Shown piece by piece: positions 17,252 to 27,717 of a stretch of 64,000 nt of DNA. The notes beneath the pieces are model-generated. The model was given only the letters and a program-made list of their open reading frames with translations, did no database searches and was not told the DNA's origin. The translations under genes were made by a program, and so were the position numbers. The stretch's first letter is position 1, and each line of letters opens with the position of its first letter. Origin of the DNA: Hellea sp. (lineage in GTDB: Bacteria; Pseudomonadota; Alphaproteobacteria; Caulobacterales; Maricaulaceae); assembly GCA_020628425.1 (NCBI GenBank), contig JAHDEZ010000001.1, forward strand, positions 62,001 through 126,000. Direction: 5' to 3'.

Positions 17252-17809
17252 ATGGTTTCGACAAAAAATTTACTCAAAACAGGCATTTGTTTTGCTGCAA
17301 TGGTGGTAAGCGCTCACGCTCAGGCTGGCGACTTTAGCGGAACTTATAGCGTTGAGCTTAATAAGACAGAAATCGTTCGTTTGAGTGAACCAGCGGCGGC
17401 TGTTGTCATCGGCAATCCCAAAATTGCCGATGTATCTGTACACTCCAGCGATACTGTTTTTGTATTAGGACGCGGATATGGCCAAACGAATCTGATCATT
17501 CTGAATTCGAACGGCGATACAATTATGGATGCCGACATCCAGGTTGTGGCTCCGATTTCTGTTGGGAATGTCCGACTTTATGAAGGTCGTAACAGGTCCA
17601 CCTTTAGCTGTGCACCAAATTGCCTCCCGTCTCCGGTCCTGGGAGATTCTGTAGAGTTTGTTGTTTTGAATACACCGGAAACCCGTGAAATCAGTACTAC
17701 GATGATTAGCGGTCCAATTACCCGACCTCAAAACATAGTCGGTATGGCTGTCGAGACAGAACCTGAATTTTCCGAAGATGATCCACGTCGACCTTATTTT
17801 CCAGAATAA
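17252..17809 (+). CDS. Pilus assembly protein N-terminal domain protein (CpaC N-domain-like)
   Basis: A secreted protein of 185 residues. The signal peptide ends near SAHAQAGD. The following domain is like the N-terminal domain of the CpaC secretin (T2SS-T3SS pilus N domain). Its VVIGNPKIADVSVHSSDTVF and GRGYGQTNLIILN segments closely parallel IVADPSVVEAMP and GRKVGQTNVYFYG in CpaC from this locus. It has no secretin domain. It probably assists the periplasmic or outer-membrane part of the Tad machine. Two Cys in the C-terminal part (FSCAPNC) may pair. It diverges from flp and precedes two TadE-like genes. Confidence 0.82.
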   Translation: MVSTKNLLKTGICFAAMVVSAHAQAGDFSGTYSVELNKTEIVRLSEPAAAVVIGNPKIADVSVHSSDTVFVLGRGYGQTNLIILNSNGDTIMDADIQVVAPISVGNVRLYEGRNRSTFSCAPNCLPSPVLGDSVEFVVLNTPETREISTTMISGPITRPQNIVGMAVETEPEFSEDDPRRPYFPE

Positions 17810-17872
17810 GTCACGTTTACCTCCGGTTAACGATAACCTTTCTCATAAAATAAATCATTTTTAGCTATTAAT

Positions 17873-17892
17873 CCGCGGAATTAGTTCTGCGG
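17873..17892 (+). other. Hairpin covering the ribosome-binding site of the first tadE-like gene
   Basis: CCGCGGAA-TTAG-TTCTGCGG forms an 8-bp stem (one G-U pair) whose 3' arm overlaps the GGGG of the SD, 6 nt before the ATG. It could limit initiation. No experimental parallel is known to me. Confidence 0.4.
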
Positions 17893-17898
17893 GGAAAT

Positions 17899-18465
17899 AT
17901 GACTAGACGTTATCGTAAGTGGCTGAATAAATATAAAAACAATAATGACGGTGCGACAGCCATTGAATTTGCTATCTTGGCCGTGCCTTTTATGGCCTTG
18001 CTTTTTTCCATTGTAGAACTGGCCATTGTTTTCTTTATTAGTTCAACGCTCACATATGCCATGAACGAAGCCGCCCGTGATATTCGGACCGGTGAATTTC
18101 AGTCGACTTGTGGAACAGCAGAGACGTTCAAAACTGCTGTTTGTGATAATATGAGTACATTGGGGAATTGCGATAACCTGCGGATTGACGTCGTGACCTC
18201 TCCTAGCGGTACATTCCAACCAAATCTGTTGCCGCCTCCAACGCCAATCGAAGATCCCGACAATCCTGGGACGCCGCTCGTCCCCGTAGACGAATACATG
18301 AGCACAGGCCCCCGCGACGTTGTCGTTGTTCGCGCTCAATATTACCACAAATTGGCTTTCCCAGGCAAATTTACACGGCTGTCCAATCAACCTGGAAATA
18401 ATCGCCTGATAACATCATCAACAGCTTTCCGAAATGAGCCATTCCCGCAAGGATCCTGCGCATGA
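17899..18465 (+). CDS. TadE-like pseudopilin 1
   Basis: A 188-residue TadE/TadG-like protein. A basic N-terminus precedes NNDGATAIEFAILAVPFMAL, the pseudopilin processing site and helix (cleavage by CpaA after Gly, Glu at +5). The C-terminal periplasmic domain contains three or more Cys (STCGTAETFKTAVC, GNC) and a Pro-rich loop. TadE proteins are minor pilins needed for Flp assembly. It overlaps the next gene as ATGA, so the two subunits are probably made together. Confidence 0.88.
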   Translation: MTRRYRKWLNKYKNNNDGATAIEFAILAVPFMALLFSIVELAIVFFISSTLTYAMNEAARDIRTGEFQSTCGTAETFKTAVCDNMSTLGNCDNLRIDVVTSPSGTFQPNLLPPPTPIEDPDNPGTPLVPVDEYMSTGPRDVVVVRAQYYHKLAFPGKFTRLSNQPGNNRLITSSTAFRNEPFPQGSCA

Positions 18466-19121
18466 CTTTAAAGACCAAATTACTAAGCACTATTGCTAAC
18501 CGTTTCCCAACTTTTGTAAAATTACGGGAAGATGAAGACGGCATCGCAGCTATTGAGTTTGCTTTGATTGCCCCAATTATGATTATCTTATATTTTGGGA
18601 TGTCCGAGATTGCTATGGGCATTATGGCAGACCGTGGCGTGTCTCATGCGACGGCCGTAACAGCGGACCTTACAACACAACTCCCAACCTATAATACAAA
18701 CGAAATTGCGGATATTATGACAGCTACGGTTGCAGTTCTTGGTGTTCCAGACTCCAAGCTGAATGAAGTCTCCATTGAGCTCAACAGCTATCAGAAAATG
18801 ACAGACGGCACCGTCAATCGTGTTGGTTATGCCTTATTGGGTGACGCCATTTCTACAGGTGCCGGAGCGACTTACGACCCAGAAGTTCTGAGCGATCAGA
18901 TGTTCAATGCTCAGTCCGGCGTTGTGGTTGCACGCATTAATTACAAATATACGCCGTCAACCTTTTGGTTCCTGGAGAATATGACCATGGCAGAAACCTT
19001 GGTAATGAAACCAAGAAAATCTGTGAATGTACCCTTTGACGAAGGTGGCGCGAATAGCTTTACCTGCTCTGTTGGAACGGACCGACTTGTCACCTGTTCC
19101 GTTTCGGCTTCGTCCGTTTAA
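18462..19121 (+). CDS. TadE/TadF-like pseudopilin 2
   Basis: A second TadE-domain protein (219 residues). It has the EDGIAAIEFALIAPIMIILYFGM helix, with Ile-Ala replacing the Thr-Ala of the pilin. An extended periplasmic domain follows, ending in CSVGTDRLVTCSVS with two Cys. It is translationally coupled to TadE-like 1 (ATGA). It probably corresponds to TadF, or to TadG without a von Willebrand domain; which one cannot be decided by eye. It is convergent with the phosphatase gene (4-bp overlap). Confidence 0.85.
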   Translation: MTLKTKLLSTIANRFPTFVKLREDEDGIAAIEFALIAPIMIILYFGMSEIAMGIMADRGVSHATAVTADLTTQLPTYNTNEIADIMTATVAVLGVPDSKLNEVSIELNSYQKMTDGTVNRVGYALLGDAISTGAGATYDPEVLSDQMFNAQSGVVVARINYKYTPSTFWFLENMTMAETLVMKPRKSVNVPFDEGGANSFTCSVGTDRLVTCSVSASSV

Positions 19122-19905: not shown

Positions 19906-20952
19906 CTATTCGGTTAGAGATTCCACCAGTTTTTTTGCTTGAATATTTTCAAAGCGTGACCAAACACCATCATCACCGTGCCAAGCCCCCTGCGTGGCCC
20001 CTTTAGAATATTCAGTAGCTCGGGCTTCAAAGAAGTTCGCATGCTCAACACCGTTGAGAATTTCCGTCAACCATGGCAGCGGGTGATGTTTAATTCCGTA
20101 GACCTTTGGCAGACCCAGCTGTCCTAGGCGCCAATCAGCAATATATCGGATATACTGCTTGATATCTTCACTGGTCATGCCTTCGACAGGGCCCAGCTCA
20201 AAGGCCAGATCGATAAACTTGTCTTCGAGACCCACAACCGTCTTACAGCAATCTACAATGTCATCGGCGACAGCCGGGGTGACACAACCGGTTTCTTTAG
20301 CGAATGTGTGATAAAGCTTGATCATTCCCTCGCAATGAAGGCTCTCATCCCGAATAGACCACGTTACGATCTGCCCCATGCCCTTCATCTTATTGAGGCG
20401 TGGAAAATTCATCAGCATAGCAAAAGAGGCAAATAGCTGAAGGCCCTCGGTGAAAGCACCAAACATGGCAACTGTCCGCGCGATATCGGCTTCTGTTTCA
20501 ACGCCGAAATCCTGCATATAGGTGTGCTTATCGGCCATGGCCTGATAATCCATAAAGGCGGAGAATTCCGTATCGGGCATGCCGATAGTCTCCAGCAGCA
20601 GTGCATAGGCTGCAATATGGATTGTTTCCATATTGGAAAAGGCCGACAACATCATTTTGACTTCGGTCGGCTTAAACACACGGGCATAGCGCTCCATATA
20701 ATTATCGTTCACTTCCACATCAGATTGGGTGAAAAATCTAAAAATTTGCGTTAGCAGGTTCTTTTCATTGTCCGTGAGATTTGTCGCCCAATCCTTGCAA
20801 TCCTCCCCCAAGGGCACTTCCTCGGGCATCCAGTGCACTTGTTGCTGCTTTTTCCAGAACTCATAGGCCCATGGATAGCGAAAAGGCTTGTAACTATGTG
20901 ACGGAATTAACAGTCCAGATTTTCCTGTCTCGATTGGCCCCTGTTGTCCCAT
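19906..20952 (-). CDS. nrdB: Class Ia ribonucleotide reductase beta subunit
   Basis: Carries the diiron-tyrosyl radical cofactor for making dNTPs. The ligand/radical set is readable. Glu and His are in NMETIH (about E109, H112) and the radical Tyr follows in HIAAY (about Y116, the counterpart of E. coli Y122). The second half-site is the DESLH motif. The length of 348 residues is normal and the C-terminal tail needed to bind NrdA is present. It is separated from nrdA by about 4.6 kb of unrelated genes. Upstream are two NrdR-type boxes 31 bp apart. Confidence 0.95.
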   Translation of the reverse strand: MGQQGPIETGKSGLLIPSHSYKPFRYPWAYEFWKKQQQVHWMPEEVPLGEDCKDWATNLTDNEKNLLTQIFRFFTQSDVEVNDNYMERYARVFKPTEVKMMLSAFSNMETIHIAAYALLLETIGMPDTEFSAFMDYQAMADKHTYMQDFGVETEADIARTVAMFGAFTEGLQLFASFAMLMNFPRLNKMKGMGQIVTWSIRDESLHCEGMIKLYHTFAKETGCVTPAVADDIVDCCKTVVGLEDKFIDLAFELGPVEGMTSEDIKQYIRYIADWRLGQLGLPKVYGIKHHPLPWLTEILNGVEHANFFEARATEYSKGATQGAWHGDDGVWSRFENIQAKKLVESLTE

Positions 20953-20988: not shown

Positions 20989-21035
20989 CTACTATATATT
21001 GACGAAGAGAAAGCCAAGACCTCAATATGTAGAGC
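20989..21035 (-). promoter_or_regulatory. Paired NrdR boxes upstream of nrdB
   Basis: Two 16-bp boxes have the cores CTATATATTG (20992-21001) and CAATATGTAG (21023-21032). They match CWATATATWG at 10/10 and 9/10 respectively and are spaced exactly 31 bp start to start. This is the classical arrangement bound by NrdR, the nucleotide-sensing repressor of ribonucleotide reductase genes. The pair begins about 37 bp before the ATG. Confidence 0.82.
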
Positions 21036-21109: not shown

Positions 21110-21877
21110 TTAGCGGCGCCAAGTAAAGGAAATAGCCGCGGCGTCCTCACTAAAACTTGAGTTTTGCAAATCTGTTTCATTGCCAAAGGACGTGACCTCC
21201 CGGCGGAAATATCCAAGCGAAATATCGGTAGATTCGTTTAAACGATATCCCACACCAGCCTGCGCATCTCCAACAATCACACGTTCCTGTAAGCGGAAAT
21301 CACCAATTGTCACCCGGTTCATGTCATTAGGCGCATAAGAGAGCGCCTCGGCATCTGCGCCGGCAAACACATACCATGTATTGGATTTAAATTCTTCCCC
21401 GTCCTTGAGGTCGTCGCCGATTTTTACATGAGCGCCGACGGCCGCACTAGACGTACCATCGTTAAAAGTCACAGCGGCTCTGGGCGTCAGCTCAATATCA
21501 ACCACTTTGTCGATCAAAGACGTTGATAATGACTTGGAATAACGCATATCCAGAGCCTGATCACTGGTCAAACAACGTTCGTCTCCGGTCAAACAATTGA
21601 TTTCCGTGAGGTCCAAATCAAAAATCTGCGATCCAAAAGTTTCTGGAGTAAGCTCCAAATCCCGATTCAACTGAGTTAAATCATTAGTATTTGAAAACGG
21701 CGTTTCAACATTCAACCGGAACGCATCATTGTTGGTAGCTTTTTCGTCAACATCCTGGGCAAAAGTCAGAGAAAATGGAAAAATTCCTGCAAAAACAATA
21801 GCTAAAGCACAGCTCACGTATCTCGTGAACCCTTGGCTTCCATTATGGATTTGATATTTCAAACCCTGCTTACGCAT
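21110..21877 (-). CDS. Putative outer-membrane or exported protein, family not recognised
   Basis: 255 residues with a signal peptide (ALAIVFAGIFPFSLTFAQ). The second half alternates polar and hydrophobic residues in strand-like blocks (VVDIELTPRAAVTF, AAVGAHVKIGDDL, WYVFAGADAEAL, QAGVGYRL, DISLGYFRRE). It ends in strand AAISFTWRR, suggesting a small beta-barrel. A Cys pair (NCLTGDERC) lies near residue 95. It is the last minus-strand gene of the insert between nrdA and nrdB. A CRP-type palindrome lies about 160 bp upstream. I assign no function. Confidence 0.6.
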   Translation of the reverse strand: MRKQGLKYQIHNGSQGFTRYVSCALAIVFAGIFPFSLTFAQDVDEKATNNDAFRLNVETPFSNTNDLTQLNRDLELTPETFGSQIFDLDLTEINCLTGDERCLTSDQALDMRYSKSLSTSLIDKVVDIELTPRAAVTFNDGTSSAAVGAHVKIGDDLKDGEEFKSNTWYVFAGADAEALSYAPNDMNRVTIGDFRLQERVIVGDAQAGVGYRLNESTDISLGYFRREVTSFGNETDLQNSSFSEDAAAISFTWRR

Positions 21878-22178
21878 CTTTCCTTCTCTAACTGGGGCCG
21901 AATTCCGGTTAACCCGGTCCCACTATACCATAATTTCCGTCAAAAAGAGACAGAAGAACAGTTAAAATCCATTAATCAGGATCTATACTGAATACAAGAT
22001 TAAGACCTTAATAGGACATAGTTTTGCAAAGAAGTGTGACCTAAATCACACGCTTTGCGAGAAAACACCAAATTCCGATTTTTTCATCTTAATTGTACGA
22101 CTCACACTTTTTCAATCTCCACTCAGCCAAGATGGCAGGTACGAACAAATTCGTGATTCGATGACGATGGCCCGTTCA
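21878..22178. other. Intergenic region with CRP/FNR-type palindrome
   Basis: About 300 bp between the small protein gene and the exported protein gene. It holds the palindrome at 22026-22058 and AT-rich promoter-like sequence. No ORF is credible. Confidence 0.6.
22026..22058. promoter_or_regulatory. CRP/FNR-type operator TGTGA-N6-TCACA inside a longer inverted repeat
   Basis: TGTGACCTAAATCACA is a perfect CRP-consensus palindrome. It is flanked by outer arms GCAAAG/CTTTGC, giving a 33-bp near-symmetric element. No T-run follows on either strand, so a terminator is unlikely. It is about 160 bp before the exported protein gene. Confidence 0.45.
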
Positions 22179-22496
22179 TTAATAAGGGGCGGCTTTACGG
22201 AAATCCCTTAAAACCTGCCACCATGCGCGCCATTCACTCTTAGTCTCTCCATATCGATACATTACAAATCTTTCTGCGACAAACGCGGAGCCCCCTGCTG
22301 GACCTGAAAAGGTAGAAATTCGAGCCTGAAGACTTGCCTGATCTCCATTAAAAGACAATAAACCTTCATCCACCATCGCATTATATGCAATGTAGTATCC
22401 TGCTCTGTCATGTGTAGCTAAAAGGTCTTCCAAAATTTTTAATTCAGCTTCGGTCAAAACCAAAGTTTTCTGCGAATCTACAGTATAATTAATCAT
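22179..22496 (-). CDS. Small uncharacterised protein (105 aa)
   Basis: No family recognised. It starts MINYTVDSQKTLVLTEAEL and contains no signal peptide or membrane segment. The C-terminus is rich in Trp/Arg (SEWRAWWQVLRDFRK). The ATG is preceded by GAGGGGA at good spacing and overlaps the upstream lipoprotein stop as ATGA. It is therefore translationally coupled to an exported lipoprotein although itself apparently cytosolic. That pairing is worth noting, but no role is assigned. Confidence 0.6.
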   Translation of the reverse strand: MINYTVDSQKTLVLTEAELKILEDLLATHDRAGYYIAYNAMVDEGLLSFNGDQASLQARISTFSGPAGGSAFVAERFVMYRYGETKSEWRAWWQVLRDFRKAAPY

Positions 22497-23161
22497 TTTA
22501 TATCCCCTCTAACTGTCATGCTTGATAAAAACCTATCTACGGACTGACACACGAACTCGGTATTGTTCATTAGTCGTCTATCGATACTCATATTGACCGA
22601 CCAGCCATCTTTATTGAGGTAGAGTCGACACATATATGGCGGCGCAGATGTCGTTGTGGCACATTTGTCAAAACGTCTTTTGCGTTCAGTTGGCGTTTCA
22701 CAAAACCCAAATTCTCTAATACTAGTGTTTAATCTATTGTTTTGTAGCCTTATAATTATCTCGTTTTCCACACTCAAAGGATCTTCTCGATGTGGATAGG
22801 AACTAATCGTCCCTGAATCTGGATCCATAATTCCACGTAGCTGCACCATATACGCATTTCTTTGATTTAACCCCGAAGCTGGATGCGCGGTTCCTGGAAC
22901 TCCATTATTTCCCATGTGAGACATTACAAATTCTTGCGGTATCCGGAGCAACCAGCGATTTTGAATATACTCTTCTTTTTGCTGCGCGTGGGACAATCTT
23001 TCCCAAGCTCGGAAATCGGCCTCATAAATGCCAGTTCCTTCACCGGATGTCTGGACCCTTTTGCCCTCACCACATCCAGTCAAAATCAAGAATAATGACG
23101 CGAACAAAAAAGTAATAAACGAATGCGTCATTCGCCGAAAATTACAGATATTGTTACCCAC
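22493..23161 (-). CDS. Cys-rich lipoprotein, paralogue A of a tandem pair
   Basis: A lipoprotein signal with lipobox LTGC is followed by about 190 periplasmic residues. It is clearly homologous to the next upstream gene: shared blocks are NRWLLRIP, ENEIIIRL and KDGWSV, plus four Cys at equivalent places (CETP, KCAT, MCRL, VCQS), so two disulfides are likely. The family is not recognised. A GTG at 23161 is proposed as start because the sequence GGGACA-TGTGGG around it is conserved between the paralogues. The track uses an ATG at 23176, and ATG 23131 is also possible. It lies in a more AT-rich stretch. Confidence 0.62.
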   Translation of the reverse strand: MGNNICNFRRMTHSFITFLFASLFLILTGCGEGKRVQTSGEGTGIYEADFRAWERLSHAQQKEEYIQNRWLLRIPQEFVMSHMGNNGVPGTAHPASGLNQRNAYMVQLRGIMDPDSGTISSYPHREDPLSVENEIIIRLQNNRLNTSIREFGFCETPTERKRRFDKCATTTSAPPYMCRLYLNKDGWSVNMSIDRRLMNNTEFVCQSVDRFLSSMTVRGDIK

Positions 23162-23411
23162 ACTGTCCCCATTCATATTGCATTCATTTAAAGCAAATCT
23201 ACATCTGCTTGCGAAGTCCTAATTTGCAATTTTGGCGATTTTTTGATGCGAATGTGGATAAATTGATTTTTCAGTCGGTTTTCAGGGGAAAGTTTAAGCA
23301 CGGAGACCTTGAAAAACGGATTATGATATCCTTTGTCAGGCACAGTATAGAGAACGCTTGCCCTCCCTACTTTCTGTTAACATCTACAAAATCAAACACC
23401 GTCATTATCTC

Positions 23412-24068
23412 TTATAACTCACTCATTTCATCCAAAAACGTCTCGACTGCACGGCAAACCGAAACATGATGTTTCATCAAATTTTTGTGGATATTCAGCG
23501 AGACACTCCACCCATCCTTTTTTAGAAAGACGGAACACAAAGCTCGTTTACTTTGGCCTTCATCAGCTCCACAATTATCAAGCATAAACTCGCTCACTTG
23601 GCTGGGCAGAAGACAGGTTTCGGCTTTGTCAACAGTCCTTATAAGCTTTCTGTTTTTTATGCGGATAATAATTTCATTCTCAAATACCCGTTGGTCTGCT
23701 GGGTCAGGATGAGAAATAATGGCACTGTTATCTGAGGCCATGACAACTCTTAATTTTACGACATATTCATTTTCGTCATTCTCGCCCGAATTAGGATGAG
23801 GAAATGCCGGAATGCCACTCTTTCCTCTATAAGACATCAAATGTTTTCGCGGTATTTCTAGGACCCATCTATCCTGGCGATATCCATCAAATGCATCGGC
23901 TGCCGAGGAACTTTCCCATATTTGAAATTCCGCTTTATAAAGACCTTCTCCCGCACCATAGGTCTTCGTGTTCCCGGAGCCGTCGCATCCCGCAAATACG
24001 GATAAGGCGAGTCCGGCAGCCGCATAAATAAGTCGCTTGAAAATATTTTGTATTAGCTCATTCCCCAC
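23412..24068 (-). CDS. Cys-rich lipoprotein, paralogue B of a tandem pair
   Basis: A lipoprotein (lipobox FAGC) homologous to paralogue A, with DRWVLEIP, FENEIIIRI, KKDGWSVSLN and four matching Cys. A 30-residue segment (HPNSGENDENEYVVKLR) parallels HPASGLNQRNAYMVQLR in A. The track start (24110) overlaps the Sel1 gene. The GTG at 24068, in the same conserved context as A, leaves 10 bp after the Sel1 stop and is preferred. A 235-bp gap separates A and B. The role is unknown; the duplicated, exported, disulfide-rich form is seen in immunity or inhibitor lipoproteins among other things. Confidence 0.62.
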   Translation of the reverse strand: MGNELIQNIFKRLIYAAAGLALSVFAGCDGSGNTKTYGAGEGLYKAEFQIWESSSAADAFDGYRQDRWVLEIPRKHLMSYRGKSGIPAFPHPNSGENDENEYVVKLRVVMASDNSAIISHPDPADQRVFENEIIIRIKNRKLIRTVDKAETCLLPSQVSEFMLDNCGADEGQSKRALCSVFLKKDGWSVSLNIHKNLMKHHVSVCRAVETFLDEMSEL

Positions 24069-24078
24069 ATTGTCCCAA

Positions 24079-25479
24079 TCATAATAATTCTCGGAGATTA
24101 ATATACACATTATGGCTCGACGCAGGTTTCTTCACCTGGCCGCCCTCGCCAATTATGAAAATGGCTGAGTCAGCGCCGGCCATGCCTGCGGGTAAGGCGA
24201 TAGAGCCGCTAACGAAGAAACAATTCAATTGTATCTGGCATCGACTAAGCCCGGTCCGCACATCTCGGGGTCGTCTGGCTTCAGTGCCTTCGGTCTCTTC
24301 GTCCTCCCACTGGTTTAGCTCAAATTCCGTGACATAACGGATTTTACCATCAGCAATATAAGGGCGCAGCTCTTTGTAACGGTCGCCGTTTCTGTTCTTG
24401 TCGAAAGCCTCCAAATTTACGGCGATACTCTGCACTTTGCCATCGGAACTATTATCGAGGTTGGCCAGGATCTGTTTGGCGTCACGCCAGTAATCCGCTT
24501 GTTCCAGATATTTTCGGGCTTTGTTTTTATCAACCGGCCCACCTTTGCCTTCCAAATATAGCAGAGCTAGTTCATAGGCCGCGCTTTGGGAATTATTGAC
24601 ATCGGCCGAGCGGCTGGTGGGGAAACCCCGCCATCGCAATCCATCCTCTCGTACTATCAGTTCATATTCAAAACCGGCACGCGGCGCGGCGGCCACGGCG
24701 TACCACTTTCGCGCCTCTTGATATTGCCCGGCCTCCTCGGCCCGATAAGCAAGTTCCTGCGCCGCCGTCAAACTGCGATTGACCGGGTTTGTTGCCGCCT
24801 GTTCCAACCAGAAGTTTGAGTCGTGACGGTTCTCAAAATAGCTCCCGAAAAAGTCCTGCGCGTCCGCAATGCCTGATTTTGCCGCCAATTCCGCATAGGA
24901 TTCACCTTTGGCTTTCAATTCCTCTAATTCAAACCTCATATTATGGGCATATTTATAGGCTGCCCAGCCATTGCCGCGATCTGCAATCGCCCGCATAGCG
25001 TCGTAATAAGCCTCTCCGTTTAAGGGTTTTGCCAACATCAGGTCTTTGGCGTCTCGGGACATTGCATCCCCCAACCTGATGCCTTTATCGAAATGAGACA
25101 ATGCGATTTTGTAGCATCTTTGTTTTGACCCGCAGCGGTAATTAAACATGCCGCGATTATAGGCTGCAGCCGGCAGGCCCTGACCTATCAGTAATTCAAA
25201 ATCATCTCTGGCCGCTAGGATGATTTCATCTTTTATAGTTTTGGGAAAATCCTCATCCGCGATCGCCAGACGGTAGTTCAAGACATGATAATTATTGGTC
25301 GACAAAGGCTCGCCCTGCCATTTGCCAATAGCGTAAACTGTTTTGGCGGCCGTCCAATACCCACCTTCAACCATTTTATAGGCCAGCGCGTTGCGGGCAT
25401 CCTGTACGGGACTGAAAGGCAGGAATATGGCTGACAAGGTCAGCAGGCCTAATCCGAGAACCTTGTAAGTTTTTCGCAT
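24079..25479 (-). CDS. Exported Sel1-like repeat protein
   Basis: A hydrophobic N-terminal signal (VLGLGLLTLSAIFLPF) without lipobox is followed by Sel1/TPR-like alpha-alpha repeats. Examples are LPAAAYNRGMFNYRCG, IALSHFDKGIRLGDA, WAAYKYAHNMRF, YAELAAKSGIADAQDFFGSYF and AAYELALLYLEGKGG. SLR proteins are periplasmic scaffolds or adaptors. The C-terminal 70 residues (LSRCQIQLNCFFVSGSIAL onward) are not repeats and have a Cys pair. The start at 25479 is chosen because GGAGGGG precedes it. It is the first gene of the accessory series downstream of nrdA, after the nrdA terminator. Confidence 0.7.
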   Translation of the reverse strand: MRKTYKVLGLGLLTLSAIFLPFSPVQDARNALAYKMVEGGYWTAAKTVYAIGKWQGEPLSTNNYHVLNYRLAIADEDFPKTIKDEIILAARDDFELLIGQGLPAAAYNRGMFNYRCGSKQRCYKIALSHFDKGIRLGDAMSRDAKDLMLAKPLNGEAYYDAMRAIADRGNGWAAYKYAHNMRFELEELKAKGESYAELAAKSGIADAQDFFGSYFENRHDSNFWLEQAATNPVNRSLTAAQELAYRAEEAGQYQEARKWYAVAAAPRAGFEYELIVREDGLRWRGFPTSRSADVNNSQSAAYELALLYLEGKGGPVDKNKARKYLEQADYWRDAKQILANLDNSSDGKVQSIAVNLEAFDKNRNGDRYKELRPYIADGKIRYVTEFELNQWEDEETEGTEARRPRDVRTGLSRCQIQLNCFFVSGSIALPAGMAGADSAIFIIGEGGQVKKPASSHNVYINLRELL

Positions 25480-25536: not shown

Positions 25537-25562
25537 AAAAAAGCCCGGACAATGCCGGGCTT
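25537..25562 (-). terminator. Rho-independent terminator of nrdA
   Basis: Minus strand AAGCCCGG-CATTGT-CCGGGCTTTTTTAATT, 26 bp after the nrdA stop. It isolates nrdA from the accessory genes behind it. Confidence 0.88.
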
Positions 25563-25587: not shown

Positions 25588-27510
25588 CTACTGACAGGCT
25601 AGGCATTCCTCGTAATCGGTGGGGGCGGCTTCGCGCATGGCCTTTTCCATTTCGTTTTCCGGCTTGTCTTCGGCACCAGCAAAAGAGGCGCGCTGAACTG
25701 ATTTGGAGCGGCAATAGTAAAGCGACTTTACGCCCTTCTCCCAGGCCGACCAGTGCAGCATGTGCAAGTCCCATTTATCCACGTCACCCGGGATGAAAAT
25801 ATTCACACTTTGCGCCTGACAGATATAAGGTGAGCGGTCAGCGGCGTGCTCGATAATCCATCGCTGGTCGATTTCAAAGGCGGTGCGGAAGACGGCCTTT
25901 TCGTTTTCATCCAACTCGTCCATGTGCTGGACGGAGCCTTCATTCTCCAGAATGGTCGCCCAGACTTCCGCTGTGTTCAGGCCCTTTTCTTCGAGCAGAG
26001 CTTCGAGGAACTTGTTCTTGACCGTGAAGGACCCAGACAATGTTTTATGGGTGTAGATATTGGCCGGTATCGGCTCGATACCTGCGGATGTGCCTCCGCA
26101 GATAATAGAGATAGAGGCAGTCGGTGCCACGGCCAGCTTGTGCGAGAAGCGGGCATTGGTATCCATATCGGCGGCGTCCGGACAGGCACCGCGCTCTTCG
26201 GCTAGTTTGACAGAAGCCGCATCGGCCTCGCGCCGGATATGGCGGAACATGCGGTTATTAAACGATTTCGCCATGGCACTTTCGAAAGCAATGTTCTTGG
26301 CTTGCAGCATGGAATGGAAACCCATCAGCCCTAGACCCACAGAACGCTCCCGCATGGCGGAATACTTGGCATCCGCCATTTCATCGGGGGCGCGCTGAAT
26401 GAAGTCTTCGAGAACATTATCGAGGAAGCGCATAATGTCTTCGATAAAGCCTTCTTCGTTCTTCCACTCATCCCATTTCTCGGCATTCACCGAAGACAGG
26501 CAGCAAACGGCGGTACGCTCTCTACCGAATTTGTCTTTGCCCGTTGCGAGCATGATCTCGGAACAGAGATTAGACTGCTTGACCGATAGGCCCTGCTCTC
26601 TCTGGTGCTTGGCGAGGGCCTCATTCACTGTGTCAGAAAAGACCAGATAAGGCTCACCAGTTTGCAGGCGCATTTCTAGGATTTTCTGCCAGAGATAACG
26701 GGCATCAATAGTTTTGATAACTTCATCCGTTTTAGGAGAGCGTAGACCAAATTCCTTACCGTCACGGACAGCCATCATGAACTCGTCCGAGACATTCAAA
26801 CCATGGTGCAGGTTCAGAGATTTGCGGTTAAAATCGCCAGATGGCTTGCGGATTTCCAGAAACTCTTCGATTTCCGGATGGTGAATATCCAGATAGACAG
26901 CTGCGGACCCGCGACGCAGCGAACCCTGGGAAATAGCCAGAGTGAGAGAGTCCATCACACGGATAAAGGGAATAATCCCTGAGGTTTTTCCGGCCTTGCC
27001 GATTTTTTCACCGATAGAGCGCACATTGCCCCAATAAGTCCCGATACCACCGCCATTTGACGCCAGCCAGACATTCTCATTCCAGATGTCGACGATAGAC
27101 CCAAGGCTGTCATCGACAGAGTTCAAGAAACATGAAATCGGAAGACCGCGATTGGCTCCACCATTGGATAGAACAGGTGTTGCCGGCATGAACCAGAGAC
27201 GGGACATATAATCATAGATACGTTGGGCGTGTTCCTGGTCATCGCCATAAGCCTCAGCCACGCGGGAGAACATGTCTTGATAGCTTTCGCCTGGCAATAG
27301 ATAACGGTCAACAAGCGTCTTTTTACCGAAATCGGTCAGCAAAGCATCGCGGGATTTATCCTGACGGACTTTAATGGAATCAACCATTTTAACGTGGCGG
27401 GGTTTACCAGCTTTTTGTTTATCAACCGGTGGTCGGTTCTCTATCTGTTCTGCTGCATCCATTTCTGGCAAGATCTGCGCCGTCGCTTCATTCAAGCTCG
27501 TCTCCGACAT
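25588..27510 (-). CDS. nrdA: Class Ia ribonucleotide reductase alpha subunit
   Basis: The catalytic subunit reducing NDPs to dNDPs. The active-site Cys residues are in LPISCFLNS and the NLCSEIML motif (Asn, Cys, Glu). The C-terminal redox tail ends ECLACQ. The specificity-site region follows SLGSIVDIWNENVW. At 640 residues it lacks the N-terminal ATP-cone that E. coli NrdA (about 760) carries, as is known for many alphaproteobacterial NrdA proteins. It is not adjacent to nrdB. Upstream are paired NrdR-type boxes and a perfect CtrA-type site. Confidence 0.96.
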   Translation of the reverse strand: MSETSLNEATAQILPEMDAAEQIENRPPVDKQKAGKPRHVKMVDSIKVRQDKSRDALLTDFGKKTLVDRYLLPGESYQDMFSRVAEAYGDDQEHAQRIYDYMSRLWFMPATPVLSNGGANRGLPISCFLNSVDDSLGSIVDIWNENVWLASNGGGIGTYWGNVRSIGEKIGKAGKTSGIIPFIRVMDSLTLAISQGSLRRGSAAVYLDIHHPEIEEFLEIRKPSGDFNRKSLNLHHGLNVSDEFMMAVRDGKEFGLRSPKTDEVIKTIDARYLWQKILEMRLQTGEPYLVFSDTVNEALAKHQREQGLSVKQSNLCSEIMLATGKDKFGRERTAVCCLSSVNAEKWDEWKNEEGFIEDIMRFLDNVLEDFIQRAPDEMADAKYSAMRERSVGLGLMGFHSMLQAKNIAFESAMAKSFNNRMFRHIRREADAASVKLAEERGACPDAADMDTNARFSHKLAVAPTASISIICGGTSAGIEPIPANIYTHKTLSGSFTVKNKFLEALLEEKGLNTAEVWATILENEGSVQHMDELDENEKAVFRTAFEIDQRWIIEHAADRSPYICQAQSVNIFIPGDVDKWDLHMLHWSAWEKGVKSLYYCRSKSVQRASFAGAEDKPENEMEKAMREAAPTDYEECLACQ

Positions 27511-27634: not shown

Positions 27635-27681
27635 GAACTATATATAGTGTTGATTTGCCATCTTTCGTCAACACCTTGTGT
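27635..27681 (-). promoter_or_regulatory. Paired NrdR boxes upstream of nrdA
   Basis: The strong box ACACTATATATAGTTC (minus strand, 27635-27650) has core CTATATATAG. A degenerate second box (27666-27681, core CAACACCTTG, 7/10) starts exactly 31 bp away. This is the same 31-bp geometry as at nrdB, which supports the weaker box. Confidence 0.75.
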
Positions 27682-27702: not shown

Positions 27703-27717
27703 TTAACGAGAAGTTAA
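27703..27717. promoter_or_regulatory. CtrA-type box TTAA-N7-TTAA between nrdA and the glycosyltransferase
   Basis: TTAACGAGAAGTTAA is a perfect 8/8 match to the CtrA full site. About one such match is expected by chance in 64 kb at even composition, so its intergenic location adds value but is not proof. It could act on nrdA, the glycosyltransferase, or both. Confidence 0.5.

Follow-up and report, generated by a model that had tools for sequence, protein, structure and literature searches.

The genes for the large and small chains of ribonucleotide reductase, nrdA and nrdB, are separated in this Hellea genome by five minus-strand open reading frames (ORFs) of 255, 105, 227, 232, and 466 amino acids, and the question raised by the locus is whether these five genes form one undescribed system. 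A reading made from the sequence alone had taken them for a single cluster of envelope genes on the strand of nrdA and nrdB, perhaps an exported module of the inhibitor or immunity kind. As that reading claimed, the five ORFs do lie between nrdA and nrdB, on the strand of both. Their organization, however, is very probably that of a conserved gene for a putative outer membrane barrel together with a species-specific insert of four genes (a Sel1-repeat gene, lipA, lipB, and a small gene) that occupies a variable site. The features are collected in Table 1; the window is the whole 64-kb stretch of DNA that was analysed.

Table 1. Features of the interval from nrdA to nrdB, in positions of the window.
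Feature	Position	Strand	Basis or remark
nrdA, large chain of ribonucleotide reductase, flanking the variable site on the left	25588..27510	-	Pfam PF02867, E 2.4e-118
Terminator-like hairpin and T run directly 3' of nrdA	25541..25562	-	consensus match only
Sel1-repeat protein gene (cargo gene 1), 466 aa	24079..25479	-	
lipA, predicted lipoprotein (cargo gene 2)	23412..24068	-	probable GTG start 24068; longest ORF from 24110
lipB, predicted lipoprotein (cargo gene 3)	22493..23161	-	probable GTG start 23161; longest ORF from 23176
small gene (cargo gene 4), 105 aa	22179..22496	-	
CRP-family operator motif TGTGATTTAGGTCACA upstream of the barrel gene	22035..22050	-	exact TGTGA-N6-TCACA
CtrA-type box TTAATCTTGTATTCA upstream of the barrel gene	21989..22003	-	motif match, one mismatch
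barrel gene, LpxR-like outer membrane protein	21110..21877	-	
nrdB, small chain of ribonucleotide reductase, flanking on the right	19906..20952	-	Pfam PF00268, E 1.1e-75

Measured from the probable starts, nrdA and the Sel1 gene lie 108 bp apart, the Sel1 gene and lipA 10 bp, and lipA and lipB 250 bp; lipB and the small gene overlap by 4 bp, and gaps of 301 and 157 bp follow between the small gene and the barrel gene and between the barrel gene and nrdB. Four of the genes had been described as closely spaced, which holds for the Sel1 gene with lipA and for lipB with the small gene, the two pairs to which close spacing is confined, but not across the 250-bp and 301-bp intervals. The gap between lipA and lipB therefore counts against a tight operon, and we infer joint transcription of the Sel1 gene, lipA, lipB, and the small gene from spacing only. 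Because its start overlaps the lipB stop (ATGA), the small gene is probably translationally coupled to lipB. The terminator-like hairpin directly after nrdA suggests that transcription of the Sel1 gene does not simply continue from nrdA; this hairpin with its T run was not seen in the short gaps between nrdA and the barrel gene in two relatives, G002 and G005. Elsewhere in the window, at 17252–19121, genes on the plus strand resemble components of a Tad-type pilus or secretion apparatus, with ORFs that carry signals or are TadE-like.

The flanking genes provide the frame for comparison with relatives, nrdA being 86–91% identical in members of the genus and nrdB 90–97% identical in most of them (82% in G004). 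The barrel gene adjoins nrdB in eight of nine genus relatives, with nine copies in all, two of them in G006; the 84%-complete assembly G003 yielded neither barrel gene nor nrdB. Orthologues in the genus share about 52–70% identity, and orthologues adjacent to nrdA are found across much of the family, the gene standing beside nrdA, nrdB, or both in other genera. Because relatives conserve it at the nrd genes without the other four, its evolutionary history is separate from theirs, and on this distribution it is ancestral to the nrd neighborhood and lies outside the insert. Its GC3 and codon usage are not deviant for the window. All 16 aligned members of the barrel family match the Pfam LpxR profile (PF09982) weakly, with a best E of 4.1e-7, and the window protein reaches 15.8 bits against a curated cut-off of 26, over its C-terminal half (profile positions 171–291). 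A PDB search with the barrel family gave no match, and since this is combined with a weak profile match the protein is called LpxR-like rather than a deacylase, its assignment as an LpxR-like outer membrane barrel being a weak one. That all five genes make up one system working with ribonucleotide reductase, as the shared strand and the adjacency might suggest, is highly improbable given that the relatives which keep the barrel gene lack the other four, and that a terminator-like hairpin intervenes after nrdA.

The gap between nrdA and the barrel gene differs greatly from one relative to the next. In the closest relatives, G002 and G005, whose nrdB is 96–97% identical, the two genes are about 200–250 bp apart and the gap is free of cargo. 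The distance is about 440 bp in G009 and about 350 bp in G006, where the interval includes an assembly gap, some of these relatives being fragmentary MAGs. Three sister genomes carry quite different cargo at the same place: 1.4 kb in G007, with a single 347-aa exported protein; 4.1 kb in G001, with a histidine kinase and a protein of 563 aa that has no Pfam match; and 8.8 kb in G008 (L061:5680-14104), with a rhomboid, a reprolysin-like protease, ECF sigma/anti-sigma-like genes, a subtilase, and an outer membrane protein. Other genes precede the barrel gene in G004. Because the gap is empty in some sisters and holds different cargo in others, between flanks that are conserved, it is by this genome comparison a permissive, variable insertion site. 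No tRNA was found in the 64-kb window, no integrase or other mobile element among the cargo ORFs or at the site, and no convincing direct repeats flanking the insertion. A search for RNA families in the region returned nothing near threshold. A phage origin of the insert was considered and rejected, with no convincing PHROGs match and no relative among phages or viral contigs, as was a plasmid origin, for which there was no match.

Conserved operator motifs sit beside the barrel gene, downstream of the cargo. Both the CRP-type palindrome and the CtrA-type box, as motif matches, are predicted regulator sites. The exact TGTGA-N6-TCACA motif occurs seven times in about 180 kb of DNA from the genus, every time upstream of a barrel orthologue (0.13 matches in shuffles). 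The CtrA-type box lies about 45–60 bp beyond the palindrome; exact TTAA-N7-TTAA is found at the corresponding position in G002, G005, G008, and G009, and a version with one mismatch both here and in G001. Boxes of the CtrA type would accord with an alphaproteobacterium resembling the Caulobacterales. The nrd genes have motifs of their own. Another CtrA-type box (TTAA-N7-TTAA) lies at 27703–27717, about 190–210 bp upstream of nrdA and before a glycosyltransferase gene that is divergent from it; each of the seven genus relatives where the interval was read retains this box. Both nrdB (at about 20990–21005) and nrdA (at about 27635–27655) are preceded by AT-rich motifs like ACTATATA that by eye resemble NrdR boxes, and by eye those upstream of nrdB are kept in G002 and G005.

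Within the insert, base composition divides the genes. The middle of the locus had been described as AT-rich, and this applies to lipA, lipB, and the small gene, with GC3 of 0.40, 0.40, and 0.33 against a mean of 0.481 (sd 0.033) over 45 window ORFs, but not to the Sel1 gene, at 0.54, or to the barrel gene. Codon usage of the same three genes is atypical for the window, taking ranks 2, 3, and 4 from the bottom of 46. Since the composition of the Sel1 gene is normal, the four insert genes need not have arrived together.

The Sel1-repeat assignment is supported, if tentatively, by a match to one repeat of the Pfam Sel1 profile (PF08238; E 4.6e-6), which at 27.4 bits falls just under the curated cut-off of 30.7, and the best PDB match is to a TPR-repeat protein (E 0.028). 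An N-terminal hydrophobic export signal predicts that the protein is exported or membrane-anchored. The family occurs in 4 of 137 genomes of the bacterial family, and the three relatives, at about 30–39% identity, are single genes at unrelated places: between amidotransferase-like genes, one amidase-like and one gatB-like, in G834 (L096:6366-7859; 39% identity), between ptsP-like and aspartokinase-like genes in G010, and at yet another place in G006, the neighbors being named by eye from translations. None of the three is accompanied by the two lipoprotein genes. As the Sel1 family occurs alone at scattered places, the four-gene block is not a travelling unit. The sequence-only reading had offered a block scattered in relatives as the observation that would speak against it, and solitary Sel1-family genes are what the relatives contain; its single five-gene cluster gives way both on these and on a barrel gene that is conserved without the other four.

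An alternative is an artefact of assembly, in which a contaminating fragment was joined into the nrd locus. The genome is a draft in 99 contigs with a contamination estimate of 5.4%, and lipA, lipB, and the small gene do deviate in composition. However, the nrdA and barrel-promoter sequences at the two junctions are typical of the genus, the Sel1 family is also present in other members of the bacterial family, and insertion at this position is normal, given that the cargo found there in other species is different. We consider an artefact very unlikely.

The products of lipA and lipB are paralogues, as had been proposed, with 36% identity and with four cysteines that align in the C-terminal half of the mature proteins. 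Judged by eye and by hydropathy, both are lipoproteins, lipB having a signal with a clear LTGC lipobox and lipA a signal with an FAGC cysteine site that is less canonical at position −3. An SD-like GGGACA ahead of the probable GTG start is common to the two genes. The 105-aa small protein has no export signal. That most of the proteins carry such signals is borne out by the N-terminal hydrophobic signals of the Sel1 protein, LipA, and LipB, and the description of uncharacterised envelope genes suits these three.

Homologues of lipA and lipB were absent from 80 relatives and from about 380–400 genomes each of the class and the phylum, those of the small gene from 80 relatives and about 380–400 phylum genomes, and those of all three from plasmids, viral contigs, and genome contigs (for lipA from phages as well), where contigs were scanned with short peptides for exact matches and genomes were sampled in part, so that distant relatives of the three could be missed. 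Weak profile matches of lipA and lipB (E above 0.001) fell on short, mostly stop-interrupted stretches and were taken as chance, as was a weak match of the small protein to an unrelated ORF in G654. The gap between lipA and lipB was also searched for decayed remains of the small gene, and the signal did not rise above shuffles. The structure models of the lipA product (pLDDT 35.7) and the small protein (pLDDT 44.7) are both of very low confidence and therefore give no fold support for any function.

What the insert does must be weighed on context. We see about an even chance that its products are lineage-specific envelope proteins for adaptation to a niche, for example in maintenance of the surface or outer membrane, with no role in conflict. 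The same-site cargo of G008 and G001 includes proteases, regulators, and outer membrane proteins, the insert adjoins the barrel gene, and no toxin gene was identified nearby. Against this stand the lack of positive evidence for such a role and the absence of lipA and lipB from all nine genus relatives searched, because of which they are not core housekeeping genes.

If one specific role were to be named, the likeliest single one, although unlikely in itself, would be orphan immunity against an incoming toxin. The Sel1 protein and the lipoproteins would bind toxins delivered to the periplasm by competitors (such as T6SS lipases), with the small protein as a possible relic or partner. A variable site that holds exported genes which are species-specific, diverging, and duplicated in tandem fits this pattern, and there are precedents in the literature: Sel1-like-repeat immunity proteins are known in Tli5b against PldB and Sel1E against VgrG4, tandem paralogous lipoproteins protect from Tle1, and islets of orphan immunity genes are known (PMC7108748, PMC13133936, PMC7400221, PMC9022076). 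On the other side, lipA, lipB, and the small gene match no immunity family in Pfam, NCBIfam, or PADLOC, no toxin-like neighbor or toxin partner was found, and no T6SS sheath gene (VipB/TssC) was detected in the genome itself or in 12 relatives, although orphans need none. Among solved structures, no Sel1 immunity protein gave a detectable sequence match to the Sel1 protein. Identity of lipA and lipB with DUF3304 (PF11745) was considered and rejected, with no profile match at E 10 and no motif shared by eye, and DUF3304 gave no match in the genome either; anti-phage defence families were likewise rejected, with no PADLOC match. More doubtful still is the further proposal that lipA, lipB, and the small gene represent a family of periplasmic inhibitors or immunity proteins that has yet to be described, kept together with a Sel1 scaffold at a hotspot on the downstream side of nrdA where the genus exchanges envelope and competition genes.

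We prefer to think of the locus as mostly ordinary genome turnover of accessory genes, plus an orphan protein family. The four-gene insert occupies the permissive gap in this species only, probably with a promoter of its own after the nrdA hairpin, and leaves the CRP- and CtrA-type promoter region of the barrel gene intact. Its exported products may act in the periplasm, where the Sel1 protein would be a helical scaffold for binding and the lipoproteins, with their cysteines, might be tethered to the membrane and bind a partner that comes from outside or belongs to the envelope. What appeared as a striking gene cluster in an essential neighborhood resolves into a conserved barrel gene and a replaceable insert, and this marks a variable site at which the genus turns over accessory genes; the orphan pair of lipA and lipB is a candidate new family, should homologues appear.

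Several known systems help to place these genes. The C-terminal half of the barrel protein matches the profile of the lipid A 3'-O-deacylase LpxR (PF09982), although with partial coverage and a score below the curated cut-off. Tandem immunity lipoproteins of the Tli1 (DUF3304) type resemble lipA and lipB in being two adjacent paralogous lipoproteins, but differ in their Pfam DUF3304 match and in motif as judged by eye. With the Sel1-repeat immunity proteins Tli5b and Sel1E the locus shares an exported or membrane-associated Sel1 protein, a C-terminal region without a named domain, and exported neighbors, whereas neither an effector nor VgrG is encoded alongside the Sel1 gene here. While the site lacks a visible integrase, tRNA, or repeats and the insert numbers only four genes, it resembles the genomic hotspots and islets found beside housekeeping genes in its conserved flanks, its species-specific cargo, and its empty sites in close relatives.
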